Positions 6,375 to 64,000 of a stretch of DNA of 64,000 nucleotides are shown here, piece after piece. Under the pieces are notes generated by a model. That model worked only from the letters and a program-made list of their open reading frames with translations. It was not told where the DNA came from and ran no database searches. The position numbers and the translations under genes were made by a program. Numbering within the stretch: position 1 is the first letter of the stretch; each line of letters opens with the position of its first letter. Source of the stretch: Cladocopium goreaui (taxonomy: Eukaryota > Sar > Dinophyceae > Suessiales > Symbiodiniaceae). The stretch covers positions 638,201 to 702,200 of the forward strand of contig CAMXCT020001680.1 of assembly GCA_947184155.2 (NCBI GenBank), read 5' to 3'.

Positions 6375-6513
6375 CTGGGTTGTGGTTTGGAACATGACTT
6401 TTATGACTTTCCATATATATATATATATATAATATAATTATATATATATTGGGAATAATCATCCCAACTGACAAAGTCAAATTTTTCAGAGGGGTGGCTC
6501 AACCACCAACCAG
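6375..6513. mobile_element. Inverted-repeat element family B
   Basis: The element runs CTGGGTTGTGGTTTGGAACA to CAACCACCAACCAG. The core has GGGAATAATCATCCCAACTG and TTTTTCAGAGGGG. It is expanded by an internal AT microsatellite (6410-6450). The flanks TAGG...TAGG suggest a 4-bp target duplication. Confidence 0.8.
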
Positions 6514-37600: not shown

Positions 37601-40600
37601 TTGAATGCCCATTGGAAAACTCTTGTTTCTTGTTGGATCTATTCATTCTCGGTTATCAGTTTTTAAATGTGTTCAATAGTTTTTCTCGGACATTCGCCAT
37701 TAAACCCCCCTGAAATTGCTTTTATTGCATTTACATGTTTCAACTGAAAGCCATAGTTTTAAGATGTTTTAAGCATTTCAAATCCTCATGAAATCCCATT
37801 CGAAACGGACTCGTGGGCAATGAGGCGCCTGGCTGCCTACCTGGGTGTTGATGTCAACCCCAAAGATTTAGATCACAACACCGACGGTGCGCGACGGCGG
37901 GCAAAGGCGGTCATATGATTTTTTAAAGGTGAGATTATCATGTATCCATACTGGTTGGTGGTTTGGAACCATGGAATTTTATGACTTTCCATATACCCTC
38001 TGGTAAACTAACATAACTATTGACAATCACCATTTTTAATGGTAAATCCACTATAAATGGCCATTTTCAATAGCTATGTTAGTTTACCAGAGGGTATTGG
38101 GAATTTCATCATCCCAACTGACGAAGTCCATGATTTTTCAGAGGGGTTGAAACCACCAGGTGGAAATCATATACTATAGGCGATGATTAGGAACATATAT
38201 ATCTATGAACATCATTGATGACAGATAATCACCATACGAGCTGGAAATAGGATAACATGGGAAATTATTGTTGATATTTCATAGAATATAATGGGATAAT
38301 GATATACTTACATACTCATATAATAATATACATGTTCATATGATAATGTATATATATACACACAGATATGTACATATATTAATATATTATGTACACATAT
38401 GTATATATATATATATAAATACGCACGGTATATATATATATATATGATAATTACACAACAATCTGATGTATTTCGGTGCGGTACCTGAAATGGGGAAAGT
38501 TCCCCCATGAATTCTCCAAAAGTTTGAGGTAAATGATGAGAAATCAGCCGATGGATTTCTCCACGAATTGAAGGAACATGTTACAGGAATACCCCGGTGC
38601 TACTTGATATTTGTCCATTTTTTTTGACAGGTTGTTTGCATTTTTTTGTTAAAGTAATGTAGTGTCATTGAGAACGACAAAACAGTGCAATTATCATAGG
38701 CTTAGTTTGCTTGGACATCTGCATACCATGTCACCTAAGAAATTTGGGAGATCTGTGGAAACACATTGAGTCAGCGTACTGCTATCCATATTTGGGTGCT
38801 GCCAAGGAAATAGGGCTGTCTAGGGCTGAATGCCTCGAAATTACAAAAAATCTGCGAATTAGCCTTTAGATCATGGATTTGACGTTTAGCTTTTAGATTA
38901 TTATGGATTGACGTTTAGACAATCATTCCTTTTCACGGAACCAGCTGCTGGAATTTTGGATAGCTGAGATGTCATTTGCATCCATTCTGCCTCCACAAGA
39001 AGTTTGCCTGATGCGACACCGAAAGTGAAAGAACAACTTTGAGGTAAAATCCACAGCAAGCAGCTCCTATATAGTTGGAGTTTCCAGTGGAGTTTCCCTC
39101 AAATCAGCCCAGTTTCATTTTTACTTTCAGACACCCACTTGCCACCATAATAGGGACCCTCAGGACTTGCAGGTGAGTTGTGTTTTGTCTTCTTACTGGA
39201 TTCCGCAGACACTGGTTCTTCTCTAATTATTTGGCTTCAACTTTTTTGATCCTGAGACATGGTGCTAGATTCTGCTAGATGTTGATTGACACATAAACTC
39301 CATATATTTTGTGGGTTTTGGATGTTTTTGGCTTTTCGACCCTTTCCATCAGTTATGCTTTTCCATCACCGGGCACCAGGGGGTGCTTTACCGGGGGCTC
39401 CAGGTGAAATCAGTCTGTCGGAGTTTCAAGACTTTGTTGGCCGCATGGGTGGGGTCGCTCGCATCAAAATCCTCAAGTTCCGGGGAGTGATGGCTGTGCC
39501 ACCAGAGGTGCCACCAGAGTTCTAGAGAGCTGAGAAATGTTTGGAGAGGCAACAGGGCTTCAACATGCTTCAACATTTTGGGTTACCCTCTGGTAAACTA
39601 ACATAACTATGGAAAATCACAATTTTTCATGGGAAAATCCACTATAAATGGTCATTTTCAATAGCTATGTTAAATTACCAGAGGGTAGAGATCATCAATA
39701 GATTCAATAGGTAATCTCCACCTGGAGCATGTCGGAGCTGCGGCGCAACGCTTGGGCTTCCGGGTATGGTGGAGTTTCCATGTGTTTCATCATAGTAAGC
39801 GATTGCCACCCGATTGAAGTATCCCCATTTCATCCCAATTATCAAGCGCTTGGTGATATAGCGGATTTACCCACCCCCAAATGAGATCTCCATGGTCCAA
39901 TATCATCCTGGCTGATGTACCCAATTTAAGTGACACATTTCTTGGGCAAATCCTGCGCTCAATAGCAGTGGTCAGTAGGGCTCCCATTCCAGACCAAATC
40001 CCCATTTTTGCTTGGTTGGATCCACATTGTTTTAAGGTTGGTGGAATGTTGGTTAGATAACTAACTCCCAAGTTGATGTGGCGATGTTATGTTGGTTTAT
40101 GCTGGTTAAAAGGTTCAATTCCTGGTTTTTGGTTGGTTACAGTAAATATAACATTCTATTTTCGTTGCTGAATTTTCAGTGTTTGCCATATTTTATCCAT
40201 ATTTTTCCCCCCATGGTTTTCCATGTTTGTTGGTGAAATCCCCATGGTTTTTTCCGATGGGATCATCGTCCCACCCCAGCTGCACCTGAGATCCAGCAGC
40301 TCTTTGAGCAACGCCGCCGGCGTGTGGCGGAGACGCGGCGCGACACGTTGAGCATGGCGGGGGTGGCCATTGGGGCGCGCGTGCTGGCGCATTTCTATGT
40401 GCCCCTGGCTGGTTGGGAGATTTTGATGATTTCCTGAGCCCCAAAAACTGGGAAAACCTGGAGAAAAATGGGGGGTTCAACGATGTTGAACGAAGTTCAA
40501 CTGATGAAAACATGCATTTGATTAAAGAAGACAAATCGGGATTCAACTTAGATTCAAGCCAGAAATCAGAAAAGTTGGGATATAATTCATTTGGCCAACG

Positions 40601-43600
40601 TAAAGATCAAAAAGGGAGAGACTTAACTATAACCCAATGAAATCCAACGAAAAACGGGCGATTCAACCTCTAAAATAGGAGAATTCCATCCGAAATAGAA
40701 GAAATGAACTGAGATGGAGGGTTTAAACCGCAAACTTTCGGGAGATCTGACAAAGAGTTGGGATTTGCCCACAAAACCATTCAGTTGGCAAAAAAATAAT
40801 TAGTTCAATTCTTGGCTAAGTTTCATGCATGAAAATCCCCCATAATTCCAATTTTATCCAATATTCGTGGTTTGAAATGGCTTGAAGATTCTTGTTTCTC
40901 TCGCCACATTTGGACGCCTGTCAGTGAGAGGCAGGCGTGAAGCCAGATCGCTACAAGTCACCGGAGCCCGAAGAAGCGGTGGTCTTGGGGGTTCATTACA
41001 AGGACAGTGAAGAGAAGCAAACTAAGATCACCATAATGATATGATATTAGTTTGCTTAATTAACTAAGATAATGCAAACTGAGAAGCAAACTAAGGACTA
41101 AGATCATCATATTCCCATAATTAGTTCATATTTATTCAAAGAATTTCAAAGATATTCAAAGCATTTTGGCATATTTGGTAACCACATGCAACCACCCGAG
41201 CCACATCATTTTCTTTATCAACCCCCATCTGAGAAAAGGATGCGACGAAGCATAGGACTTCAGCCAACAAAGAGGCAGACTCGACCCACATTCCGATGGG
41301 GTTCAAAAAATGTCTATGTAACGCTAAGTGATGGTTGAAGCTGGTTAAAATTGGGGACTTCAAAGGAAATTGGGGGTTGACCAACAGAAAGTGAGTTTTG
41401 ACCAACAAGAACTGGAATTTACATCATCAACAAAATGGGGGTAAATGCTATCGGCAACGAAAACGGTATGTAAATAGCCAAGAACAAGAATGAGGAGATA
41501 TCCGACAACAGGTTCGTTGCTTCTGATTCTCTGCATATACACAAGCTTTGTTGAGGTGGAGCAGCAAGAAGAATGGATGTAACTTAGTAACCATTAGCTA
41601 TAGACATGATCTTGGTTTGTCTTTGGGGTTCTTCTACAATCATGGAATCATGGGTCCCCATATTACTGATAAATCGGCTATTGTGGGCTATCATACCCAT
41701 GAAATCTCACTAAAATCCATTAAAATCCATCAACATGTACTAAAATCCCATGAAAATTCCATAACTTTGGTTTCTTTGGGGCTTAATCTCCCCGGAGGAT
41801 GATGATATGGCGGGCCCTTCTCAGCTGGAAGTGGAGTTAGAGTTCTTGCGAGATCCGACGACATTGGAGAGGAGGGCAGGGGTCCAGAACCGGAGATTGC
41901 TGGGGGGGGTGGATGACCATGCTCTAACCATGGTCTAAACATGTCTAAACCATCAAAAAGTGGGAGTTTTTATCATCAATTGAGGTGTGTTTCACACAGA
42001 AATCCTGATAGTTTCCTCGGTTTTTTGGGGCGACTGAAGTATCACATTTGGGGTCCACGGGTCCACAACCCCATCCATCTAAAGCCTCTGAAAACCATTT
42101 CTAGGCGGATTCGGTGTTAGTTCTCCGGGGGTGTAGTCTTCACTGGTTCTAATAATCTATCACTATGAATGAATATACCAAGAAACAGGAATCATAGGGA
42201 TGCAATTGGTAATCAGCGATAAAAATCGGATCAACTGGTGGCCATCGACCTTGGCGTAGCTTCTCATGACCGATAGTTGAAATTCCAGCCTTTGGTTCCA
42301 AATTCTGAGGCAACCTCATCTCGCTGGTGAGGAAACATGTGATGGGCGAACTGACAGGCAAACGCAAACCACAACCAAAGCGGCTAGTACTCAGCCCTAA
42401 ATTACTTCAAAGCACCCTGCATGGATTGTTTGCCTCCCTCATTGGGGCGAAGTTAGCAACATCTTTGTTTCTTCGTCAAGCTCAAACACGCTCGAGCAAT
42501 ACCTTGCATCTGATGCCTTCAAGCTTCCCAATTTTGTACCCAATCTGATCCACTTTCATTCACCATCCACTTCCGATTTTGAGGGCAGTACCTGATTTAT
42601 TGCTGTGGGGCCGGTGTCGCACTCTTTTTTGTGATTTTCATAATCTCTGTTTTACGCTATTTGATGTATATTATATACATGATTCACTAGAATTATGGCA
42701 AGAGCCAAAAAGTCCATCGTTGCACTCCTTGGCCGCTTTCATCCCTTTGCTGTTCTATTACTTTTACATGTTTTTACATCTCTTGCTTGAAGGTCCTTTT
42801 CCACTTGGATATTTTAGGAGAGATCTTCCACTTTAGTGCTGAAGATGCCCAACGAATTCCATTGTTGCTGTAACCTATTCTTTCCCTCTCAAACTCTGAA
42901 ATACCAGAAATACATAGGAATACTACAATCCGATACCCCATCTATCAAATCCCATCACCTCATCCGGTGTTCGTCAAAGCTCATATGAAAGCCGACTGGG
43001 TCGACTATCAGTCCCATCCCCCCAATATTCAACGACTTCCAACGCCATCACGACTCCCCCCTTGGTGGCCCTTGGTGGCCCTTGGTTTTCTTCTTTTTTG
43101 GTCCCCCTTGGGATGTCCCTGTCTCCATGACCAGCCGTTGTCGCAGGACTAAAAAGGCCACCTGCGTCCCTTCGCATTGGATCGTCAGCACCTCGGAAGA
43201 TGCTGAAGTGGCGGCTGCACTGCGCGAGGTGCCGGCTTTCACCTGAAAACTTGGGGGATTCAGCACCATGGCACCGAAAAACATGGGATAAACATGAGGG
43301 TTTAAACAAACCACTGGATGGAATGGGGTAGCCCTAATTTTCAGATGGCAAAGCCGAAAATTCCAATAGCTTTTGGTGAAAAACCCGCCGTTTGAATTCG
43401 AAATAGGAGGGATTGGTCTCAACGAATCCCTCTTCGGACAGGCCAAAACCACCAAGCAGTGATTCAGGCAATGATAGATCCGGATTTTGATTTTTCCAAA
43501 CAATAGAGCAAGGAGTGTGGTTTGAATATAAATCCAATCATAGATTATAAGATCGCATCAATATACCTTGGTAAACAGATTGGCTAGCCCTTTAAGAGTG

Positions 43601-46600
43601 TACCAATGGGGATTATATGAGGTAAGGGAAGACTGTACATCGAGGCAGAACTTGGAAGTGAAACAAACAACCAGTTTCTGGGATATTACTGAAATGAAGG
43701 TTTTCCACATATATATATATATATATGTACATACGGATACGTGATACGTATTTATAGTATATGTTTGTTGCCCGCCTGGTGAACATTCTGACAAGATTTT
43801 TGTTGATTTTCCCCATTCAACGACTCAATCAAGGATAACTAATACATGATGATTTACCGCAATTATTCCGATTTATCATGATTTACCATGATTTACCGTG
43901 ATTTTCTTGACTTTGCCTCTTGAAAATAGAAGATAAAACGAAGGATTTCCCAGTGACTTTTCCAGGTCCCGTCCCCCGTTGATATCGGGAGGTTGGTATC
44001 CACGACGAAGACCAACCCTTTTGGGATGCCGTCTTTCCGGCCTCCGAGACGCGAGAGGTGACCGCGAAGCTGGGGTGACCGGGTCTACTTGGAGCATCCC
44101 ACTTAAGGAGCTGGTGATATATCCCATTAATTAAAATTATATAATATTATTATATATATATATATTGTATACTATAATATATACAATATTATATTATTAT
44201 GTTTTCCAGAATAATACACGATATTAATTATGATCTTATATGATATATTATGTGATATTACATGATCATATATCATATAACTAATGTTGCTATCCCTATG
44301 GATCCAGCAATACCTTCTCAGAAAGGATTTGGATCCATAGGGCCAAACATAGGGTATGGGAGAAGCCCAGGAAATCGGGACTTACGATCTATGGGAATAC
44401 ATGAGATGCTGATCCTCCAAGTTAGATGTTTTTGGTACGTTCCCATTAATTTTAAAAGTGTTATTGACATATGATAAACCTAATGATATAGTACATGACA
44501 ACATATAGATGGTAGGATATCCGGAGGGAAGGGTTGATATGACCTGATGGGATCTTATGGGTAAGGTACCCGAAGATGCGATGCTTTGGTTTCTTGCATG
44601 TACATGGCTATGAATGACCAGTTATTAATTAATCCAGTCTGTTTGTTAAGCCAACATGTTTCTCCAACAATTCATTTCTGTTGATTCGACCGTGTTTGTT
44701 CTTGGTGAATTTCCGACTGCTTTAAGTTATGGTAGAATCATGTGAACCCCCCATTTTCACCATGTTCACCAGGTGTTTTCATGGATTTTCCATGGATTTT
44801 CCCATGATTTTCGTCCTTGAACGTCCTTCCATCCGTTTCGAATGGTCTCCGGCAGGTCGTCCGGTTGACCACCTGTCAACGTCGCGCCTTGGCGTTGGTG
44901 CGCGCACAGGCGACGTATCTTCACCAGGTGGGATCTGTCCATTGGAGTCCATTGGAGGATTTGTAACCAGCTGGTACTTTTTTGATGGTTTACCGTCCTC
45001 AAAATCAACCATGGTTAATCAGCCATAGCCATGGGAAATGACCCATAGAAATATATGGTTTACCGTTCTTAAAAATGGGTGGATCTTTCCATGGCTAATT
45101 ATGTTAGTCATAACCAGATGATTCATTGTCAGTAAATTTTGTACCATCTGGTTATGACTAACAGTTCGCGAACTGGAAAGATCCACCATTTTTAAGAACG
45201 GTAAACCATCTATTTCTATGAGCCATGGCTTCCATGGCTATGTTGAATAACCAGAGGGTAACGGGTAGATCATGGTGGATAGCTATGATTCATGGTCAGT
45301 GAAAATGGTCAGTAATTGGATGCAACATGATGTAAATGGTGACTAAGTAGATTATTTATGATGATTGACCTATGAAATGAATAATGGGTAGTTTTTTTTA
45401 CTATCTAATGGATTGTGGGAAGTATATGGTGGATAGCTAAGTAGATGATAGTACAGATGATTTACCTACTATTTGACGATGGGCAGTTTTTTTTTACAAA
45501 ATCTTGAATTGTAGTGATGACATCAGCCTATTTGTAGTGATTCCCATAGCTATTTTAAATTTCCAAATGTTACTCATTGAAACCGGGGATTTAAGACATG
45601 GATTTGATCAATGACATAATCATCAAAACAACTGAAACCTCATATAGAGATTCATCACTAAAGCCCAAACCAGGAGTTTGACATATCCCATGTTGGTTGA
45701 TTAAATCATCAATATTGAGGAATTGATATTGATTTACATAGATAGATAATATAACCCGTATATCAGCACTACAGTATGGATTTAATCAATGATTTAATCA
45801 ACCAAATATGGGGTTTTATTATATGTGATTTGATTATTTAATCGAATATGGGGTTTAATCATCTGGGTTTATCAAGGTGTTTTCAGTGTTCTATAGCTTT
45901 TCAGGGATGCATATAAAAAGGGGATTGCAGACAAAGAAGGCATCAAATGAAAACCCTATTAAAAGGGTGGCATTCATCAAAATAGGGATTTGACCAATGA
46001 TAAATATGGGCAGATGGCTGAAAATTGATTCACTATCCCCCAAAACAGTTTGACACTGAGAGTAGCCAATTCTTGAAGGGAGTTAGAGGTTTCCAACGTC
46101 CTACCTGGTAAGATCGTCATATTAGTGATGTTATGACTGAGTTCTTTTCTGGTGAGTTATTATATGGTGAGTTCTTATTACTTATCGTGGTCAGAATGTA
46201 TCTTAAGGTTCCATCCATGGCTTGGATTAGTTGGATTTCACTTGCCGAAATGGGGATGAAAAAAATCCCGTCAACGATGACTTTGTTTCATAGTATGATG
46301 GGTTGAGCAACAAAAGTGGGACTGAAACAGTTGGATGCTATGATTCTTTATGGGTCGAAAAAAACGTAATTTTGTTTCAACGTGCCAAAATGTGAATTTT
46401 TAACGTAGTATAATGAATGGCGTTGTCCAAACATACGTACATCATAGGGATCATATTGCAGATTGGTTGAGCAACAAGAGTTGTGATTTATTGGGAAACA
46501 ATGGGGTCTTGTATTTCTTGATTGGTCAAAACTATCAAGGTCTAAGCTGTGGTGGTTTAAATACCACCAGTATGAATAGTGACTTGTGATTTAAGCCAAC

Positions 46601-49600
46601 AAGTCATTGGTTCACAGACTGTTCATAGTAATTTTGTTTTACCATCGACCATCGGATATTTAAATTTAAACAATTATAAAACTATTTGCTGGTCACGGGA
46701 ATTTGACCAACATGAAATTGGACTTGAATGGAAACCCGCATGTTTCTTTTTACAAAGCAGATTTGAAATGGTTTTGCTGAAAATAGTGGTATATCAAATC
46801 ATATCCATTCATATCCCATGTAAGTATCATTCATACCCCATGTAAGTATCATTCATATCCCATGTACCCTATGGTAAACTTTCACATAACTATGGAAAAT
46901 CATCATTTTCCATGGGTAAATCCACTATTTCGATGGCCAGTTTCAAGCACTGGATTTGGGGATACCCCCCAGATCACCTGCGACTGGATGGCAGTGATGG
47001 GCAGAACCAGATGGCAACTGAATTTTTTATGTGAATCAAATCGAATCATCAAACGAATCATCTGAGTCAAATGATCTCACTAAAGTTGACTAAAGTTTGT
47101 TTTTTTCCGCAGAGATAATAGATCATTCCTGTTTGACCCAAAATCCGCTGGAACATCCGCTGGCAAATCCGCTGCCCATCCAGGCTGCCTATCCCAGAGT
47201 CTTGGAGCGATTTCAGAAGATGGGTTACACCGACAAGGAACTCCAGGCTCGCCTTACCGCTGGCCACAACGGGACCCAGTGCGGATTCGTATTGATGTTA
47301 TATGTATACCTATATGCGATTGTGTAACACACAGGGACATCATGTAGCGTATATTATGTATGAGAGTGTATATAAGTACAGTATAACAGTGTAACATAAT
47401 TACTAGATCTTTCGCACCGCTAAAAAAGGTAGATCTTGAATATTGTTTCAGCGGGTTCCAATATATTCCTTTTCCTTTTGCAGAACGGGACACCCAAAAT
47501 GTACTGTAAACATCTGTAAACATGTTTTTTTGTTCCAGGTTCTCCAGACAGACATGGCACGTTGTTGCGTTACCCTTTCACCACTTTCCCGGATCCTAGG
47601 CTGTTTGACCAGGTGATTTCCAGAAGACAGTGAAAACTTCGATCGAAACCCACAACATGAATTGGTACATGAAGTTCCGATTAAAAGGCGAGACTTATGG
47701 CAAACAAGAGCCTGGAAGACTTGGCGTTGGCTTACATCATCTTTCATCTTCAAGTTGAGGACTTGGGAATCGAGATGTTCCATCCTCAATAAGATATGTT
47801 TCACATGTTTTGGCACACTCTTTCATGTGTGTTCCATGTTCAAGAAGATATGTGAATATATGTGATATGTGCTAGATTGTCCAAAGCAATTGTCCCCTTG
47901 ACAACTTGAACCATTTTGAACATATCATGAAATATAAGTCCATTGGTGACTCAGGTGGTGACCTACAGTATAATATGAAAAGACCAATCATGAATCTATA
48001 TCTTATTACATATACTGTAGATGCAAGTCATTATTCATCATAAAATCCCAGCATTGAGAAGCATTATTAAGCCAGAATCAGAGTTAAGTACTTTGAAACA
48101 CATTGGCTTACATTTTGGTATCATGATATCGATATGGAGGTTTCCTAAGTCATAGGGGTACCCCCAGTTATCATCCATTTATACTGGTTGGTGGTTTGGA
48201 ACATTTTTTATTTTCCCATAATATATTGGGAATGTCATCATCCCAACTGACGAAGTCATATTTTTCAGAGGGATTGCTCAACCACCAACCAGGATAGATT
48301 ACAGCATATTACAACTACGTATATGATGGTCAATCATGGTGATATTTTATCTAATCATCATAGTTATCATCCATTTATAGACTGGTTGGTGTTTTCAAAC
48401 ATGAATTATATTTTCCATAATATATGGGATAAGCCTTCCCATTGACTAATATTTTTCAAGATGGTTAAAACCACCAACCAGTAGATAGATTTGCCATGAA
48501 ATAAACCATCCAGCGATAAAGGGGTACCATGGCTGAACCCTCAGGCCGTCTTGAGCTGGGTTCAAGACCTGGCACCCGTCATCATCCACGTGCAGCTGGT
48601 GGCTTTGGCGCAACGGGCACGGGCCCAGGGATTTTACTGACATATGCGGAGATGTGCCCCAAGTTCCATGGGTTTATGATTCATCGGTTTATGATGGATT
48701 TATGATGGGTTTATGATGGGTTTATGATGGGTTTATGGGATTTTTCTGGATTTTTGAAGGGACTAGCCTGGTTACGGTGAAATCTGGTGAGATGACCTGA
48801 GTTCGGGTGGTTTTTTTGGGGGGGTTGATGGGAATTGCCTTGTCCGACGGAGGACACAGTGGGTCGATTCCTCGAGTCCGATGAATTCTACAGGCTCCAG
48901 CTATTGGTTGTCAGCTTTTGTCCAAATATTTTTTGGGATGAACATCCATTTACTTTGGGGTTAGGTACCCTACCAAGGATTATCCCATCTAATATCCCAT
49001 TCAAATATTATCCATTTACCATCTAATATGGGATAATATATGGGATAATATTGGGCTCAGTAGGGTACCAGGGACTAGCCATATCTAAGTCAGAAAAAAC
49101 AATAGTAAGAACTTGAATCTACAGTACGTGGGAATGGTTCAGAATGATGTACTCCCCAATTTCCTCAGCATCACATATCCCAAACCGTTCTCGACCTTTT
49201 GTCTCTGCTAGTAGATGTTTGGGGATCAGCATAGTCTATCACTCTTTTCGACCAAATTCATTCCGTTGTTCTTTTATTAATATTCTTACATATTCTTATA
49301 TATGCAGTATATGAATATTCTTATGTTAATATGCTTATATTAGTTTATATCAATATTCTAATGTGAATATTCTTATATTGATATGTTTATATTATATTCA
49401 TATTGATGTTCTTATATCAATATTATTATATATTATTATATATTCCAATTCAATCTTGCTGTGGCTTCTTTTACTACCAAACAGGCCAAACAGGTCTCTT
49501 TTCAGCTGGTGCGAAAGCTGCACCTTTCTTGACGGCAGGAGTCAGTTCGAGACGAAGACCTCCAATGGTGCATTGGACGATGGTGCCGTAGGGCGGTCAG

Positions 49601-52600
49601 TATGGGCGGGTTGGAGCCGGTGCCTATTTGTGGGTACCGCTGGATTAATGGAACATCTCCTAAAAAAATCCAAAAAACAGATGATTTAGGGTAGCCTCAT
49701 GACTTAGGAAAGCGCCATTTTGTTTGGGGAACTTGGACTTGGAACGAGATCATCTAGGAACTGCAGGAATAGGACAGAGAATCTATGGCTGTGGGGGTTC
49801 CGATGGATGCATCCACCAGGAAACAACATTCGCATCGGATGGGAAGAAGATCTCTTTGGTGATGCCTATCATGATGCAACACCCTTTGAGCGCTGCAAGT
49901 ACGGAGCTTTGAATGTCACTGGTTTGCTGATGGAGAGGTTTTTTTTGTGACCCCCGGAAAGGGAACAAAAGATGCTATGGAGACCCCAATAGGTCATGGG
50001 TCAGAGTCAGCTGGGACCCTGTCCTAGGTGACCAATGACTTCGAGGGCTGCAGGTCAGCGCTTCAGTATGGAGACAGTGTCCTGGTGGAAAGGGGCGAGC
50101 ATCTCAGAGGTGAACCATACAGAATACCCTCTGGTAAACTAACATAGCTATTGAAAATAACAATTTATAGTGGATTTACTCATCAAAAATGGTGATTTTC
50201 CATAGTTACGTTAGTTTACCAGAGGGTATATCAGAATATATGGCTCTTGATCAAAATCTCATCTCTATCCCCATAGTATCATAGGACTCCCATTCTTTTT
50301 AATTTCCATGGATATCGCGTAACAAAAATCCCATACAAAATCCCATCATTTCCGATCCCTAGGCATTTAAAGGGTGCCGTCGCTTTGAAACGGTCCAAGG
50401 TTACCTGGTGCTGAAGGATGTGCGTTTGCGGTGTAGCTTCGCAGCCACGGATTCTGGTGGGATCGAAGGCGGTCGTTTTTTGAAGTTCTGAGAGACAAAA
50501 ATGGCAACCAGAGCTCATGGAGATTCCTAGATTTTCCATCATTTTCCATCATTTTCCCACCTCCATCGCAGTTGTGGGTTTCCAGCGCAGGCTCGAGGTT
50601 GGCCGTCCTGGACAAATATGCACATGTCGTTTGGCAAAGACAGAGCTGGTTGGGTTTCAGGAGGGTGACGGGATCATGGTGAAGGACGTTTTTTTTTTTA
50701 ATGGTTTATGATGGTTCCAGTGGGTCATCCGTTGCGCCGGAACATCCACAAAACAAGTTTGTCAAGGGACAAGACATTCAGGAACCCCGTGCAGATCAGT
50801 GTAGATGTTTGAAAGCAAACAATCATCATGGGTTCTTGTACAATTTTCTCTTGAACCAAACAGCGGTGGGTCATGGTGGGTCTCCTTATTTGAAGAAACC
50901 CTTAAAAAAAAATGGATGCAACATGTTGCAAAACCCCATCCTTAAGTCAATGAATTGGTTCAAACTTGTTCTGCATCGTTTTGGGGTCACTGTATCATCC
51001 GCTTCCCATATGTTCGGATTTCTTCCTCCACAATACACGCAATGTTGGTGTATAAACTCCACAATAGCCTTGAGTCAGTGTTGGTGTCTTTAAATCAAGC
51101 AGATCAACTCAAATCTTAAAGACACACTGACACATCCCTTCAAACTCATCCTTTCTCAGTTTTTCACCGCAAACTCCACAAGCTATCCCAACTGGTTGGT
51201 GGTTTGGAACATGAATTTTATTTTTCCCATTAAACAATGGGAATGTCATAATCCCAACTGACGAATTCCATCATTTTTCAGAGGGGTAGGGCTCAACCAC
51301 CAACCAGATTATTATTAACCATCATTAACCATGTATAATAACCATATAATAACCATCATCATTAACCATGGTGATGGGGTAGGTCAACCACCATCAACCA
51401 GCCAACATATCTGGGTATGGATCAATACCTATTAATACCATTTTTAGAGGAATGAACATCCATTTACCAGCTATTTTGGGGTTCACTAGGTACCAGGGTT
51501 TTGACCCATCCCCATCTCAACATCTCAAGCTTTCCCAGTTCCTTCGATTTCTTCGACATCCAGGTCCTGGAGGAATACCACGAGCACGAAATCCAGGGCA
51601 TTTTGGACGTGGCCATGGCTCCGGAGCCTCGAGCCGCGGAGGAGTTGCCAAAGCTCATGCGAGGCGAGACGCCGCATTGAGCCGAAAATGGCTGGAGTTG
51701 CTGAAAACCTGATGAGTTGAGATACTGTAAAGTAAATGATTGATGATTGATGATGATTGATGATGATTTTCGGAAGTTAGAGATTAAGGATGAATTATAG
51801 GGATAAATGATGATAAATGTATATGTCATCATATGGCCATTTTGGGTGGGAAACTGATGACTGATGATCAAACCATAGTCAGATGATGTCTCGATGATGT
51901 CAGATGTGGCCCCTGGTCGGACACCCCCAGGTCGGACGACGCAGTGTTTCTAGCGGCGACATGCGTTGCTGTAAAATGATGGACCGTTGGAGCTACTGAA
52001 GTGAGAATTGTTCCATGATTCGTTGGAGCTCATAGACTCTTCCTGGTTGGTGGTTTGGAACATGAATTTTATTTTCCATAATATATGGGATAATCATGGA
52101 TAATCCTTCCCATTGACTAATTTCAAGATGGTGGTTTTAAACCAGCTTCCAGTGGTTTTACCCTGGAATTGGGATAAACGCAGTGCCAAATGCCGAGTTC
52201 ATCCCTCGCGAAACTGGCCGCAGGAAGTACAGAGAATTCCATCAGAGAATGGCTCACCTTTGGCTTCCCCCAACTGAAACGGAAGGAAGGTGCTGCGTTG
52301 TTTCACAAGACATGCTGGGCGCATGGGGTGGGATGATGTAGCCCACTGGAACGTAGAGTACTACTGTGTGGCTTTGATGAAGTACATACCCCTGAGTGCG
52401 TGCTCGGTTTGTAGCCCCCAATACTTATATGCAGATATGCACACATAAACCATCATAAACCAAAGTTACAAGATCTATAAACCAAGTTGCCAAGTTAACA
52501 AACTAGGGCACCTCCCTGTAACATCCCCTAAGTACTTGTTAATCCCTCTGTTGGGCGAGAGGACCACCGAGCCTTGTTTGCTTGCAGGTTGCTTCTTTTT

Positions 52601-55600
52601 CGAGGTGGAGCTGAAGGAGGGCTGCATTCTGCCGCACGTTGGACTTGCAGGTGATCAATTCATGTGGACGGTGGGAGTGAAGAGTCTCCTGGAGACTGGA
52701 TTGGTCACTTTTGATCGAAGAATCGAAGCCAAGCCAGTGCCATAAAGTGCCACAAAACGCCACAAAACGACAAAACTGCCCAAGGTACACTTATCTTTCT
52801 GGGTTGGGTCATCTTTGCTCATCTATGATCGTTTGATAGTTTATTTTATCATTATCCGATTTTTTCTGTCCCACCCTTGTTTTTTATCTCAGGTGTCACT
52901 GGTATCGGTGGCATTGGCGACGATGAATACAGCTGTGGCGTCGATGGTCTGCACGGCGCGTGTCTCAAAAATGGCCCGGTGAGCTCGTGGAACGTCAGCT
53001 GGCCCAAGGGTTCGGTTGAGCGAGTCCACTTCGACTGTGAAACTTGGAGGATTTTATGGTATGGATCCAGCTATACCTTCGGAAGTATGACTGGGCTATG
53101 GTTTGGGGGGTTAGCCGTAAGTTCTCAGAAAGTATTTGGAGCCATAGGGGATGATTAAAGAAATGGTGATATCATGTGGATTTATCCAAGAAGAATGGGG
53201 AATTTAATGGGATTCAATGAGATTTCACTTGCTTTACTATCAAATTTATTGGGTTGCAATCCCCTTGACCGTTCACATTAAACATGCCCCAGAGTCACCA
53301 TGGTTTAAATAATGGGAGATAAAAGTTTAAAAACACATATTTGGGACCACAGAATGGGGGTGTTTATATGATATGAAGGGGGATGGGACTACGATTTAGT
53401 TGGTGTTAACAGTATATATAAGCAACCATTTTTATGGGTAGAATGGGATGTATTATCAAACTTTATAAACATAATTTTTCAACAATGGCGGATTTTCCAT
53501 GGGATTTGAGTGGAGAAATGTGGAAGCATGGTGATATAGCCAGCAATATTTGGGATTTAGAATGATTTAATGGGATGGGATTTATCTGGGGGGAACATGC
53601 TGATTTAACTGGCGCAATTGGTAAATCCACCATTTGGATCCTGGTTGGAATTTCCACTACAAAAGTAGTGATTGGGGTTGGGCAGAGCTACTTTACAGCT
53701 ACAAAATCTTGACCCAACCGTCCTCCCCAAATACCAACCCCGATCCATTTGGGGAATCTTTAGTTTTTTTATTTTGCTGGGCCATCTTGAACAAATCCCA
53801 GGACAATTATGAAAGGGAACAATCCGAAATTCTGGGCAAGACTGTGCTGGTGGGTATCTTGGAGTGATTAATTTTTTGGAGCATGTATTTGGAGGTTTCC
53901 ACAAATGGTGGTACCCCAAAATGGATGGTTTATAATAGTGGACATTCCTATACAAATTGATGATTTTGGGGTACCTCCATTTTAGGAAATCCCCATATGG
54001 CATTTTTTGTTTGATTTTTTTTTGACTTATGTGTTCTCAATCAACTCAGACTTGTGACTTGCGGCATTTATGGTACTTAAATGGTTAGGGATTGCCGCTC
54101 ATTATTTCTGGTCGAAAATCTAGATGTTGACAGTTGATGGTTGCGTGCTGAAGATCACCTACGTGATCTGGTTGGTGGTTTGGAACATGTGTTATTTTTC
54201 CATATATTGGGAATAATCATCCCAATTGAGTTTCATATTTTTCAGAGGGGTGGCTCAACCACCAACCAGTGATGATCGTAGATGTCCAGCTCTCCACTGC
54301 CAACATCATGATCCCCCCCTTTTATGGGGTAATTGTTTGATCACATCAAAAGGTGCATATCAACATGTTGTTTGGTTCCAAGCCATTTTGCAGCTTAACA
54401 GGTGTTGCAGCTGAATATACCCATCTTGGTTCGGTACAGTCAGTTACACCGACACCATTCGACAACCAGAAGGGTATGCAATGGTCCGTGCCCAGGTGTT
54501 TTAGTAGACTTGGACCATGGCACTGTGACCTTTGCATCAGATGGTGCCTGGGGAAGTACCTGGAACCCACACATCACACAGGAGGATATGCCCTGCGACC
54601 TGGCTGGCAAGTCACACCAGGGCGGATCTGGTGCCCATCAAGAGGGAAGGTGGATGCCACCGAACCTGGGGCCGGCTGGATGGCCTTGGATGGCCTTGGG
54701 GTCCCCCAAGTGTCAGAATTTCAATCACTGATAATCACTGGCTCTTGGCTGGAAGTTGGACTGGAAAAAACCAGTTTCCCCATGAAAAGTTGTGGGTTCC
54801 TTCAACAAATCCAGAAATTCAGCGGCCCATAGTGAGGGTCCTGATACCTTAGCTTGATGTCATTTTAGTTGAGGATTTATGTGTGGTTTTGGTGAAGTTA
54901 AAAACCTAGGGAATCACAGACTAGTCGGCTGCCAGGCAGCAGCTTGCAGGTAGTCAACTATATTCTATATGCAACTTTCAAGCTGCCCAAGTTTGCTTCA
55001 TACCCACATTTTTTCAGTCTCTTCCATCATTTTGTGTTCACCTTCCAACTTACAACTTCCACCTGTAGCCTTGCTGAGGCTACCATGAGGGACTCTTCCC
55101 AGCTATTTCCATCAAAGGTTCCGCGAGCTTTCACTTCGGTCCTGACTTTAAGCACCCACCGCCGTGACTTGTCAGTTCATGGCGATGACCTAATCGGGCG
55201 TTGATTTACCTCGAATTGCATGGACAAAGCTTCGATCCTGAGGGGTAGCAAATGGTAACCATGCTACCATGTCAATGTCCATCCATTCTTGGGAAGTTCC
55301 TTCACCCCCAATTCTATATCCATGCACATTGTATCGAAGTTTCACCGAAGTCTGATTCCGGTCTGATTCTCCGTTCTCCGTTGCGCCGAGTGAACAGCTC
55401 GGCTCACAGGAAGAGCTTTTGCGACTTCACCCCTTGGGCCAAGTTGGGAGAAGTTCGTGTGGACAACCCAGCGGTAGGATGCTCAGACGTGTTGAACATC
55501 TACAAGGAGACACTCAGTCGCCGACTCATGGCCAACAGCTTAATCATATCCACATCTTTGGTGCGGGAGTCAGAAGTGATAGATGATCAGTTAGATTCCC

Positions 55601-58600
55601 TTGTGAAAATACCATTTGGGTCTGGCCGCCAAAATCTCTGCGTTTTTTCGGCTCCGGCTCCGGCTGGTTAAAACGAAGCACAGGAGGCGCAGATCCACGG
55701 AGAGGTGTGCCTCAAGAAACATGTCCTGCGCTTGGTGGCCAATAAACGCTACCGCCAGCAGACGCGAAGTTGGAGCATCCAGGTGTGGGGCCATAGGATG
55801 GACAGGTTTTTTTGACAGGAATAGACCATAGGATTCATTAGGATTTAATAGTAATTTATAGTATGGATTGCTAGGATTTTTCCTTGGAATTGTAAGAGGA
55901 AGAATATCAAAGGTGGATGAATAGTATATTGGGAATGTCATCATCCCAACTGACGAACTCCATCATTTTTCAGACAGATTTCTTCGAGATTTACAGGGAA
56001 AGATCCCAATGGATCCATGGTGGATATCGCCAAATATCGCCTATCGCATCGAGGTCACAGGCGCGGGTCGCTGCAATGGCACCTACCAGTGGTTCGATCG
56101 TTTCAACAAGCGTTCCTGCTACAAGTCTCCCTCTGGGTGTATCATCTACTACAACCAGCAGGACCCGGTTGGGGGACCCGGTTGGGAATGATGACAGATC
56201 CAGATCCGGGATGTCATTGGAAGTTAGCCAGCCCCTTTCATTGGGCTGGCCCATGGACGAGAATGAGGGAAGGGTTTTTGAGTTTTTGAAAACGTCGCAA
56301 TGTTTCAACATGTTTCAAACATGTTCAAAATTTGTGGCCATGGCTCAACTCTCAATGTTGTACTCCCATAGTTTCATGGTTCCTTCTTCAGAGTTGGCAT
56401 GAGAATTGTTTGATCCGAAGTCCTAAGAATTACCAGTGCATCCGTCAGTCCGATCACATCTATATGTTTGTCTGAAAATAGGGTACCCCTAAAATCCCCT
56501 AATTTATATAAATCCATCAGTTTAGCATCATTTTCCCATAGACACACGGCCTTTAAACGGGGCTGTACCGTATACCCACTTGCCGTTGAGGAGTCATGCT
56601 GGCGCATCAACTCCCGACAGGAGTTCACTGGCTTCGTTTTTCAAGCCAAAAGCAAGGTCCGCAAAACCAGCGGTGGATGGGGGTATGTTCGGCACTGTGT
56701 TTTCAGGTGTACAAGGTGTAACAAGTAAAGTACAAACATGTACAAACATATTATAACTACTAAGAGCTAAAAGCTTGGAATTGGGGATGTATGCAGAATC
56801 ATATGGTTGGACTTAGGATAGGAATATCTTTGGATGTGTGTAAAGCTGCAGGAATACATGGTTGGATTTAAATATAGACATATTGTTTGGAGGTACAAAG
56901 CTGCAAAAAACAGGTTGCAGTTGATCATTTGACCACACAAAATTGCGCATTTGGGGAGGGACTATCATCTCGACTGGCTGGTGTTGCCAAAGGCCCTGGG
57001 AATGGCCGGGCCAGGAAACTTCCCGCTATGTGAGCAACATGGGTGGACACAGTGAACCACCTCGCACCGGCTGGAAACCCACCCTGGGTTTGAAAGGTCT
57101 GGAGCCCCGGTGCCGAAACTTTTTTTCGACAGGTCCAATGTTTGGTTTGAAATTTGATGCATCAAATGTTGCTGTGACAATCTGTGACATGGTTTTGCAT
57201 ATGGGTTTGTCTGAAAATGGGCTATCGCATATTCCAATATATTCCAATGGACTATCCTCATTTCCCCCATTAAAAAAAAAAAAACATTTCTGGGTATCCC
57301 CTACTTTTAGACAACTCAACATTTCGGCATTTCGCTTCTGGCGCAGGCTGCGTGCCAGTCGAGATCTTCCAAAAAGCCTTGGTGCAACAAGGAGTTCCAA
57401 CAGAGGACCTAGAACATATGATCAAGGTCGCCAGGGAAGATCGGCGGAAGATCTGGGCAGTAGCGAGAACCATACAATGATACCAATGATATCAATGATT
57501 CTTGAGATTTCTTGAGGATAATTTGTGTTCATTCTACAACCATTCTTGTGCAAGGTCGATGTTTCATGATGTTTGATGATCGACTGGGTGGAAGTGCGAT
57601 TTATAAAAGGCCCGTGAAATATGGGATGTCGATGTTTGATCACTCTGGACTCTGGACTATTAGAATTCCTCCTTCTCTTCGTAGCTTTCGTTGCTTTTTG
57701 GGTGGGAGCTTATTTTTTTCATCGTATCAGGTTACTGCCCAAAGCTCAGTGGCTCTTGTGGAAAAGCACCAGCGGAACAGACTAGGCTGCCCCGAAAACG
57801 CGCCATGTTTCAGGGACCTGCAGCGTGGTCGCAGGTCTTGCGTGGAAGCGACGAAGAGAAGGATTCCATTTTTCGGAAGCTGGGGGAATCTTGCATGCAG
57901 CTGTTGAAACACATTAACACATTGTACCAAGCAGGGCAGTCTGAAGTGTGGGTCAAAAAGAAAAAAGTTCCCCACGTATGTTTTTCATGACACCAAAAAG
58001 TGATCTCTTCATGGACTAAGTATGACTAGTGGTATGACATAGTATGACTAGTGGTATATCATTGGTGGTGCCATTTACCAATGGTGCCATTGGTGGTGCC
58101 CCCAGCCGTAGCAACTGGTGGTGCCATTGGTGGTGCCCCCAGCCGTAGCAACTGGTGGTGCCATTGGTGGTGCCCCCCAGGAAACGACCTTCAAAGCTGA
58201 GTGGCATCGCCTCGTTTGGCCACCACATGCACGGCCTTTGAGCGCTGCTGGAGCCTGGGCGGAGGCCGGTGGGGCCGTGGAAAGCCGGTGGGGCCGGTGG
58301 GGCTGTGGAGTTCAGCCCTGGGGAGTTCTTAAGTCATGGGGATCACCAATAGCTGGAGGGTTTTACCATGGAAAATATTGGAACATCCTATTCAAATGGA
58401 TGAACATCATGGTTGTTTCAATACTAAAATGATCTAATGACAATGATAACTGACCCTATGCTGACCAGATCGTGACCACTGAATGATTAGGTAAATCACC
58501 CAGTTAGATCATTTAAGATGTTGCTTCCTATACTATACAGTATTAGTACATATAATTATTGATATATACATATATATATATATATAGTGATATATACATC

Positions 58601-60704: not shown

Positions 60705-61246
60705 TACTAGATCTTCACTCCTTCACATCTGCTGATCTAGATCTTCACTCCTTCACATCTGCTGATCTAGATCTTCATACCCTCACACCTGCAGATCTAG
60801 ATCTTCACTCCTTCACATCTGCTGATCTAGATCTTCACTCCTTCACATCTGCTGATCTAGATCTTCACTCCTTCACATCTGCAGATCTAGATCTTCACCC
60901 CCTCACACCTGCAGATCTAGATCTTCACACCCTCACACCTGCAGATCTAGATCTTCACACCCTCACATCTGCAGATCTACATCTTCACACCCTCACATCT
61001 GCCGATCTAGATCTTCACACCTTCACATCTGCAGATCTAGTCTTCACACCCTCATATCTGCAGATCTAGATCTTCACACCCTCACATCTGCAGATCTAGA
61101 TCTTCACACCCTCACACCTGCAGATCTAGATCTTCACACCCTCACACCTGCAGATCTAGATCTTCACACCCTCACATCTGCAGATCTACATCTTCACACC
61201 CTCACATCTGCAGATCTACATCTTCACACCTTCACATCTGCAGATC
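60705..61246. repeat. 30-bp satellite
   Basis: About 18 copies of GATCTAGATCTTCACTCCTT plus CACATCTGCA. Variants alternate CTCCTTCACATCTGCT and ACCCTCACACCTGCA; most units carry an AGATCT palindrome. Confidence 0.95.
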
Positions 61247-61317
61247 TCCTCTCGCTCTTCTTCTATTTCTCTCTTTAGGCGGGGGCGGTGCCGCCGGAGC
61301 GCCACGAAACGCAACCC

Positions 61318-61775
61318 TTTCGCACGAAATGGACGTTGGACGTCAAAAACTGAGGAAAAATTGCAACTTTTATTGGTCGCGCGCAACCCTTTCGCACGAA
61401 ATGGACGTTGGACGTCCAAAACCTAGGTAAAAATTGCGATTTTGATGCGTCGCGCGCAACCCTTTCGCACGAAATGGACGTTGGACGTCAAAAACTGGGG
61501 AAAAATTGCGACTTTACTTAGTCAATCGCAACCCTTACACACGAAATGGACGTTGGACGTCAAAAACTGAGGAAAAATTGCGACTTTTATCCGTCGCGCG
61601 CAACCCTTTCGCACGAAATGGACGTTGGACGTCAAAAACTGAGGAAAAATTGCGACTTTGAAGTGTCCCGCGCAACCCTTACGCACGAAATGGACGTTGG
61701 CCGTCAAAAACTGAGGAAAAATTGCGACTTTGAGTTGTCAATCGCAACCCTTACGCACGAAATGGACGTTGTGTG
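61318..61775. repeat. 72-bp satellite
   Basis: Seven starts of ACGAAATGGACGTTGGACGT at about 61324, 61396, 61469, 61541, 61613, 61685 and 61757. The 24-residue readings (HEMDVGRQKLRKNCDF on +) have no known function. Confidence 0.95.
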
Positions 61776-62820
61776 TAAAAGCGTCTGTGTGTAAAAGCGT
61801 TTGTGTGTAAAAGCCTCTGTGTGTAAAAGCGCCTGTGTGTAAAAGCTTCTGTGTGTAAAAGCGTCTGTGTGTAAAAGCGTCTGTGTGTAAAAGCCTCTGT
61901 GTGTGAAAGCTTCTGTGTGTAAAAGCGTCTGTGTGTAAAAGCGTCTGTGTGTAAAAGCGTCTGTGTGTAAAGGAGTCTGTGTGTAAAAGCTTCTGTGTGT
62001 AAAAGCTTCTGTGTGTAAAAGCGTTTGTGTGTAAAAGCCTCTGTGTGTAAAAGCGTCTGTGTGTAAAAGCTTCTGTGTGTAAAAGCGTCTGTGTGTAAAA
62101 GCGTCTGTGTGTAAAAGTGCAAAAGCGTTTGTGTGTAAAAGCGTCTGTGTGTAAAAGCGCCTGTGTGTAAAAGCTTCTGTGTGTAAAAGCGTCTGTGTGT
62201 AAAAGCCCCTGTGTGTAAAAGCTTCTGTGTGTAAAAGCCTCTGTGTGTGAAAGTGTTGTGTGTAAAAAGTTCTGTGTGTAAAAGCTTCTGTGTGTAAAAG
62301 CTTCTGTGTGTAAAAGCGCCTGTGTGTAAAAGCTTCTGTGTGTAAAGGAGTCTGTGTGTAAAAGCTTCTGTGTGTAAAAGCGTCTGTGTGTAAAAGCGTC
62401 TGTGTGTAAAAGCGCAAAAGCGTTTGTGTGTAAAAGCGTCTGTGTGTAAAAGCGCCTGTGTGTAAAAGCTTCCGTGTGTAAAAGCGTCTGTGTGTAAAAG
62501 CGTCTGTGTGTAAAAGCGCCTGTGTGTAAAAGCTTCTCTGTGTAAAAGCCTCTGTGTGTGAAAGTGTTGTGTGTAAAAAGCTTCTGTGTGTAAAAGCGTC
62601 TGTGTGTAAAGGACTCTGTGTGTAAAGGAGTCTGTGTGTAAAAGCGTCTGTGTGTAAAAGCGTCTGTGTGTAAAAGCGTTTGTGTGTGAAAGCATGTGTG
62701 CGTGTGTAAAAAGCATCTGCGTGTAAAAGCGTCTGTGTGTAAAAGCGTCTGTGTGTAAAAGCGTTTGTGTGTGAAAGCGTGTGTGCGTGTGTAATAAGCA
62801 TCTGCGTGTAGGAGCGTCTG
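61770..62820. repeat. 16-bp satellite with higher-order pattern
   Basis: About 65 units of GTCTGTGTGTAAAAGC. Variants (GGAGTC, GTGCAAAAGCG, GTGTTGTGTGTAAAAAG) recur about 300 bp apart. The complement lacks stops in every frame, giving a 384-codon minus frame of the FYTQTLLHTDAFTHRR type. It begins inside the last ACGAAATGGACGTTG of the 72-bp array. Confidence 0.95.
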
Positions 62821-64000
62821 TGTGTGATGGCATTCTCAGTTTGGAACGCAGCGAACAAATCCTTTGCAGTGGATTGTGCAACTCTGCACCGACAAGCATA
62901 GTTTACCTCTTTACCTCTTTCCTTGGCTCAGATGTGAACGTAGAGACAAGATGCATTGTGTACAGAGTGAACATCCATATTCTTATATGTACGCTGAATG
63001 TTCGTGAAACAAGTGACGATTGGCAAACAGGTATCTTGAACATTTCTTGGACTTCTCGAGGTTTCTGTGGGGGCTGTCCCTGAGATCTCGAGAATTGCAT
63101 TGTGACAATGTCAGTGTTTGTTTACGATGCAGTGGATCTATGTAAGTACAGCACGAAAAAATATATGTAATGTTTTCATGGAAATGCATGAGCAGTGGAC
63201 AAAAAATACTATTCGGGCCGATCCTGACATGCCGCCATTTTTAAGTCGGGACCTTATATGCAAATGAATAACATGTGTTTTGATGATTTGATGTGTTCAT
63301 TGTAAGCTTCACTGTTGACACGTTCAGCCTTCAGTTTGCAGGACTCTGCGACAGTGGTTCTTTGCCATGTCAAACTCATGAGTGGCATTCTCAGTTCTTT
63401 TGTGGACATGTCCATGATGATTGTTTTGTGCACAGAGTGAACATTCTTATTCCCATATGTACGCTGAATGTTCGTGAAACAAGTGATGATCGGACCGCAT
63501 GGTTTTTGACAATGAAAATGATCTGATGCTGGTTTCGCAGTGCGGTTGATGTATTTATATATAGCATGTGTATTGTTTGCATGTTTGCCATTCTTTGATA
63601 GACGTTGTTCGGGAAGCAGCAGCTGAGTTTTGAGCTTGCAGGTCGTTCTCCAGAGGATGGTGTCTTCTTATCGCAAGCTCAGGAGTTGCGATCCCAGTCT
63701 CGAGCTTCACAGAGTATGTTTTGCGTTGTTCCATGCTAATTCACTGTTTCACGTTCAGACCATGTTGACCTCTTTGCTCTATAGATGTGAATTGATCATT
63801 CCTGGTCTTAGATGTGAGCAAATGGACAAGACAAGAGTCACGCATGCGGAAACAAAATACCATGCAGCATGAGCAAATAGTGTAGGCATGCTTGACAAGA
63901 CACCCCAACGGTTCTGGCATTTCTCGAGATTTTTTGAGATTTCTGAACGTGGTTGGATCCTTACTTACAAATTGCATGTGCGTCTTTCGTTGCCATGTCT
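62821..64000. other. Right-end region with an internal duplication
   Basis: 62958-63025 and 63427-63495 share ACAGAGTGAACAT, then ATATGTACGCTGAATGTTCG and TGAAACAAGTGA. Weaker shared phrases (CTCGAG...GAATTGCAT) recur near 63060 and 63920. The open frames are short and not clearly coding. Confidence 0.6.

Follow-up and report, generated by a model that had tools for sequence, protein, structure and literature searches.

Among the closest known counterparts of the protein discussed here is SopF of Salmonella (PDB 7dn8 and 7dn9), an ADP-ribosyltransferase effector that contains DUF3626 and is activated by host ARF, as set out in part of PMC10333799. The gene that we describe lies in the dinoflagellate Cladocopium goreaui, in a 64,000-nucleotide stretch of contig CAMXCT020001680.1 (the window is this whole stretch), and encodes a DUF3626 domain that is interrupted by a SPRY domain. 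SopF has 374 residues, probably too few to hold both a SPRY domain and a second block of the size seen here, and whereas SopF is a bacterial effector, the algal gene is multidomain and contains introns. The CopC/OspC3 ADP-riboxanases and DarT match far more weakly than SopF does; calmodulin, in this group, is a separate host protein. Uninserted DUF3626 proteins of dinoflagellates (such as P0015, P0026 and P0070), many of them EF-hand-marked, share 46-56% identity with the first DUF3626 segment of the window gene (seven compared). They are without SPRY, and their flanking motifs are 73-76 residues apart in 89 of 89 proteins. DDX1, a DEAD-box helicase whose RecA core holds an inserted SPRY, resembles the algal gene in principle only: its host fold is a helicase, that of the algal gene is DUF3626, and the two insertion events are presumably unrelated.

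In open-access PubMed Central, a collection outside which most subscription literature lies, DUF3626 was found only in Salmonella work, and nothing was found that treats dinoflagellates together with SopF. Among titles and the starts of abstracts there, with parts of PMC6682159, PMC10333799, PMC4555926 and PMC7827354, on dinoflagellates with SPRY or ADP-ribosyltransferase, on SPRY with ADP-ribosyltransferase or with domain insertion, on SopF and on the ARTT (ADP-ribosylating turn-turn) loop, no title concerned a SPRY-in-DUF3626 arrangement. Some homologs are already named B30.2/SPRY or EF-hand proteins in public databases, so the single domains have been detected by machine before. What appears new is that SPRY and a second block split a SopF-fold family.

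The nesting holds up, and several genera of dinoflagellates share it. The original prediction, made from the letters of the window, had proposed it for this locus, and we see it both in our model of the window gene and in its homologs. A first protein search, in which the 7,996 candidates with the most words in common were scored, gave 179 proteins below 1e-3 (at least 120 of them listed); two more searches, on the SPRY part, gave 12 and 64. One Polarella glacialis protein from the first search aligned over the entire query (41%), and many of the 64 proteins, at lengths of 1,368-1,752 residues, bear EF-hand, DUF3626 and SPRY marks. Every readable organism name is that of a dinoflagellate.

The motifs YGDSY and KExQIHGE are both present in 137 of 180 homologs, and the distance between them divides the family: 73-76 residues in 89, 229-298 in 47 and 586 in one (P0174), no other distance occurring. 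Of the 48 inserted proteins, 40 match a SPRY pattern between the two motifs and the other eight do not. Named inserted cases include Polarella glacialis, several Symbiodinium, Effrenium voratum and Durusdinium trenchii; 15 of the 48 carry transcript-assembly names (TRINITY, MMETSP transcript, GFBE), a sign that in other species the parts are joined in transcripts. Because near-copies are included, these are counts of proteins and not of events. The Protoceratium reticulatum transcript protein P0166 (taxid checked) has KYG, KExQIHGE and HGWxFxW in the same order, and is left out of the 48 because the YGDSY pattern missed it. The Prorocentrum cordatum model P0177 ends ahead of KExQIHGE. Uninserted DUF3626 proteins are plentiful (89 of 137 classified), some with a Cys-rich repeat C-terminal region (for example P0060, P0070 and P0116). 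In the gene models P0008 and P0169 a BLUF photoreceptor domain mark (PF04940) is joined to DUF3626; these may be annotation fusions.

A second insertion follows the first. HGWxFxW lies 34-39 residues past KExQIHGE in 34 of the 89 uninserted homologs, and 625-1,010 residues past it in 32 of the 48 inserted ones. EAQIHGEV, previously taken for the closing motif of DUF3626, is therefore not the end of the domain. Wherever HGWxFxW was found, the SPRY insertion and the second insertion co-occur. The second insertion (P0131 and others, from KExQIHGE to HGWxFxW) adds about 600-1,000 residues to the same fold; that of P0138 has a PDZ match above the cut-off and a ZZ match below it.

Uninserted proteins read ...VANAPEGSED and then RIGDS...YKEAQIHGE, and the window reads ...VAMAPE and then GCSDVLNIYKEAQIHGE around its insert, so that the flanks match in both forms. 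The insert covers about residues 196-387 of the window model (window about 51627-55473). With the insert excluded, 89 rows gave a tree in which the 46 inserted rows, one of them the window model, fall on one side of one branch, with a Shimodaira-Hasegawa-like approximate likelihood ratio (SH-aLRT) support of 99, and a single change suffices. The tree was made by a quick method and its midpoint root serves for drawing only; it fits one origin of the inserted form, with the root not fixed.

The window gene was modelled at the DNA level, its exon edges derived from homology and splice signals. Exons were joined with a phase check in a first open model and the edges were then corrected by homologs; edges 52683, 55079 and 55506 are refinements of that first joined model that the original prediction did not give. 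The final model has 18 exons (A to Q with J2, 44856-56167) and 469 residues, is stop-free and has matching phases. Its donors are 12 GT, 5 GC and 1 GA, and its acceptors are all AG; dinoflagellates use GC and GA donors. Where exons L and M end is uncertain. The features are as follows.

36500-36625 (approximate edges), +: exon aligned to the EF-hand region of relatives (profile, 36.4 bits; tblastn with P0009, 4.4e-5)
39403-39465 (approximate edges), +: EF-hand-like exon GEISLSEFQDFVGRMGG (tblastn, both profile scans)
40291-40401 (approximate edges), +: linker exon IQQLFEQRRRRV...GARVLAHFYV (tblastn, both profile scans)
40928-41011 (approximate edges), +: linker exon AGVKPDRYKSPEPEEAVVLGVHYKD (tblastn with P0011, 2.6e-9; absent from profile matches)
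41786-41872 (approximate edges), +: linker exon DDDMAGPSQLEVELEFLR (tblastn with P0011, 6.6e-9; absent from profile matches)
43142-43231 (approximate edges), +: linker exon TCVPSHWIVSTSEDAEVAAALREV (tblastn, both profile scans)
43986-44063 (approximate edges), +: linker exon REVGIHDEDQPFWDAVFPASETREV (tblastn, both profile scans)
44856-44927, +: exon A, N-terminal helical part of the DUF3626/ADP-ribosyltransferase region (tblastn, first and final models)
47184-47246, +: exon B (tblastn, final model)
48545-48598, +: exon C, LAPVIIHV, first strand with the conserved His (tblastn, final model)
48853-48893, +: exon D, DTVGRFLESDEFY (tblastn, final model)
49539-49582, +: exon E, RSQFETKTSNG, several donors possible and one chosen (tblastn, final model)
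49820-49914, +: exon F, LFGDAY and KYGALN with the conserved Tyr (Pfam DUF3626 4e-4 alone; final model)
50028-50076, +: exon G, VTNDFEGCRSALQYGD (tblastn, final model)
50400-50468, +: exon H, SYLVLKDVRLRCSFAATDSGGIE (tblastn, final model)
50591-50625, +: exon I, GSRLAVLDKYAH (tblastn, final model)
51564-51663, +: exon J, last part of DUF3626 segment 1, then linker, with the insertion point near 51627 (tblastn, final model)
52224-52289, +: exon J2, GSTENSIREWLTFGFPQLKRKE, lead-in to SPRY (tblastn with P0001, 3.0e-8; final model)
52588-52683, +: SPRY exon K, GCFFFEVEL...GVK (tblastn, final model)
52893-53009, +: SPRY exon L, GIGDDEYS, donor end uncertain (tblastn, final model)
54496-54606, +: SPRY exon M, VLVDLDHGTVTFASDG, GC donor, end uncertain (profile scan, final model)
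55079-55163, +: SPRY exon N, LFPAISIKGSASFHFGPDFKHPP (tblastn, final model)
55410-55506, +: exon O, sequence following the SPRY core, then resumption of DUF3626 (GCSDVLNIYK, from about 55474) (tblastn, final model)
55684-55782, +: exon P, EAQIHGEV with the presumed catalytic Glu (Pfam DUF3626 8.5e-4 alone; tblastn, final model)
56054-56167, +: exon Q, where the second insertion opens (VTGAGRCNGTY...) (profile scan, final model)
57340-57444 (approximate edges), +: another second-insertion exon (profile, 9.7 bits)

Much of the original prediction stands. Its named DUF3626 and SPRY motifs lie where it placed them, on the + strand and in the order it gave, and its phases hold: 1 out of LMR and into CFFFEVE, 2 out of FKHPP(P) and into the 55410 exon, and 0 into EAQIHGEV. 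The direct join of LMR to CFFFEVE has the right phases, yet it passes over exon J2, which has phase 1 at both ends, so that a phase check alone could not expose the omission. Similarly, the order of motifs in the DUF3626 exon series was right but exon I was missing from it. The proposed bounds, 44856 to 55782, were too narrow: the first profile segments, from 36.5 kb, are EF-hand-like, which puts the real start, with EF-hand-like and other exons, well upstream of 44856. Of the outcomes named in advance as fatal, none is seen in the profile scans or the homologs: whole-window profile scans gave one KExQIHGE segment, at 55684, and hence no second DUF3626 end before 52588, and 15 of the 48 inserted homologs are transcript-named. 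The nesting is thus supported, but the account was incomplete: the ADP-ribosyltransferase fold, the second insertion and the EF-hand-like exons had gone unrecognised.

Chance as the cause of the exon series is ruled out. A 16-protein family profile with the window left out gave 22 segments of at least 8 bits (10.2-54.1 bits), all on the + strand and colinear over 39.4-56.2 kb; the best score on the reversed window was 1.3 bits. A 32-protein profile gave 24 segments of at least 3 bits over 36.5-57.4 kb, again all + and colinear, the lowest at 9.7 bits, with a reversed-window best of 0.8 bits. The joined window model had served to find the profile homologs; this is mildly circular, but the controls were run with those very profiles and share it.

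The window model matches Pfam DUF3626 (PF12294) at 78 bits (cut-off 27) in two stretches, the best at profile positions 14-113. That match stops after residue 195 and picks up again near 388, in place of the usual contiguous domain through the final strand; all four uninserted relatives that were scanned match as one stretch to profile positions 227-236. The single-exon matches of exons F and P are each under the curated cut-off. The window stretch is named SPRY from its continuous alignment to relatives, not from its own Pfam score. Six of ten relatives pass the Pfam SPRY cut-off in one scan (P0003, P0012, P0122, P0123, P0124, P0127), with P0010 and P0126 under it and P0125 and P0129 unlisted, and four of four pass in a second scan; the SPRY fold is recovered. 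Exons 36500-36625 and 39403-39465 align to the EF-hand parts of relatives and stand outside the joined model and its Pfam scoring, and an EF-hand cut-off is passed by all four full-length relatives that were scanned.

An uninserted relative has a SopF-like ADP-ribosyltransferase fold. In P0026, His57 lies on strand 54-58, Tyr114 on 113-117 and Glu207 on 206-210; they are candidate equivalents of the I-Y-E triad of SopF, and all three have counterparts in the window. Glu207 corresponds to profile column 254, within the matched range 154-273, and His57 (column 104) falls outside that range. Inserted proteins keep the His in 43 of 48 (one Gln, four unmatched) and the Tyr in 47 of 48 (one unmatched). 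The Glu is present in 48 of 48, which is not independent evidence because the pattern required it.

On balance we lean towards one gene of a dinoflagellate SopF-type ADP-ribosyltransferase family, with a twice-split core, a substrate-presenting SPRY domain and Ca2+ gating. EF-hands would come first; the transferase fold that follows is split twice: by SPRY just ahead of the strand that opens with the presumed catalytic Glu (KEAQIHGEV), and, in relatives, by a multidomain block ahead of the final helix and strand (HGWxFxW). The three DUF3626 pieces would assemble into an NAD+-using core; SPRY, near the active-site cleft, would bind a protein substrate and present it to this core; and Ca2+ on the EF-hands would gate activity. 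The data show the gene layout, the split, one change on the tree and the SopF-like fold of an uninserted relative; that the split core folds, that it uses NAD+, which residues are catalytic, where in space SPRY sits and what it does, and that Ca2+ exerts control, we infer.

Several observations weigh against this explanation. The window model scores 15.2 bits (E 0.024) against Pfam SPRY (PF00622), under the cut-off of 26.3. No copy of HGWxFxW, the last DUF3626 piece, turned up in the 64-kb window, the 32-protein profile scan included. The His is not strict: of the 89 uninserted proteins, 61 have His, 3 have Met and 25 do not match the pattern. The structure model of the inserted protein P0124 has a mean predicted local distance difference test (pLDDT) score of 65.8, with 10-residue blocks of 33-43 at 161-190, 221-260 and 501-540; its alignment is poor, P0124 is without the last DUF3626 piece, and it is because its transferase part is poorly modelled that folding of the split core stays inferential. 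The analogy with the ARTT loop is loose, since part of PMC7827354 describes that loop as recognising the substrate in enzymes of the R-S-E class and states that PARP1/2 have none. Finally, the public gene models P0007 and P0176, for each of which the longest contig is given as 350,362 bases, hold the front DUF3626 part and a SPRY part separately, and P0179 begins just ahead of KExQIHGE.

The inserted family could instead be a catalytically dead or non-enzymatic scaffold, its fold kept for binding NAD+, a small GTPase or a phosphoinositide, with SPRY and the second block as the working parts. Two large insertions within one catalytic fold would be unusual, and SopF itself binds ARF1 (title of 7dn8) and phosphoinositides (part of PMC10333799). 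Dead enzymes often lose catalytic residues, though, and the His and Tyr counts in inserted proteins make such a scaffold unlikely. SPRY might also, instead of receiving substrate, act as a regulatory lid or spacer and so control assembly or how the active site is reached. The insertion point adjoins the presumed catalytic strand, and the inserted SPRY of DDX1 is called uncharacterised in relevance, with complex assembly suggested, in part of PMC4555926; we still think a lid improbable. A real family of which the window copy is a decaying or truncated, pseudogene-like member is similarly improbable. The end branch of the window model is long (0.45 versus a median of 0.17), its Pfam SPRY score is weak, a single further exon scored past 56167, and tandem repeats fill 60.7-62.8 kb. 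On the other side, 469 codons over 18 exons, as modelled, are free of stops and frame breaks, and the conserved His, Tyr and Glu are all present; the window ends at 64000, so remaining exons may lie outside it. That separate DUF3626, SPRY and third genes in a row only look like one gene is very improbable, and disfavoured at the family level: introns are long, the window layout is known from DNA alone and the divided public models fit, but phases match throughout, the single frame of exon O covers both the stretch after the SPRY core and the resumption of DUF3626, and 48 of 137 classified homologs, 15 of them transcript-named, carry the two DUF3626 motifs, widely spaced, within a single polypeptide.

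The window also contains repeats. At 32363-33609 a 54-base tandem repeat has 23 copies and encodes, in one frame, a repeated KPEEPKAEEKKDEPKPDA peptide; it may be part of an upstream gene or exon. Three different tandem arrays (periods 30, 72 and 16) succeed one another at 60707-62825, where later exons might be expected. An interspersed repeat, TGGTTGGTGGTTTGGAACATG, has 8 copies within 3 mismatches (none expected by chance), of which those at 48185, 48383, 51193, 52044 and 54169 are in introns of the 18-exon model; the others are at 6376, 22273 and 37952.

Pfam still lists DUF3626 as a domain of unknown function, and the SopF-fold link in algae gives a large dinoflagellate family a testable activity. 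If the favoured explanation is true, a twice-split catalytic fold, its binding domain next to the presumed catalytic residue, would illustrate from nature how an ADP-ribosyltransferase can have substrate choice built in. The origin of SopF-type enzymes, bacterial or eukaryotic, becomes a question that can be studied. More tentatively, dinoflagellates may possess a lineage-wide, endogenous set of Ca2+-gated SopF-type enzymes, in which one ancestral change put a SPRY substrate receptor at the rim of the active site and a second, multidomain block before the last strand; a fold known best from a bacterial effector might thereby have become a host signalling enzyme, with the nested SPRY choosing its targets.
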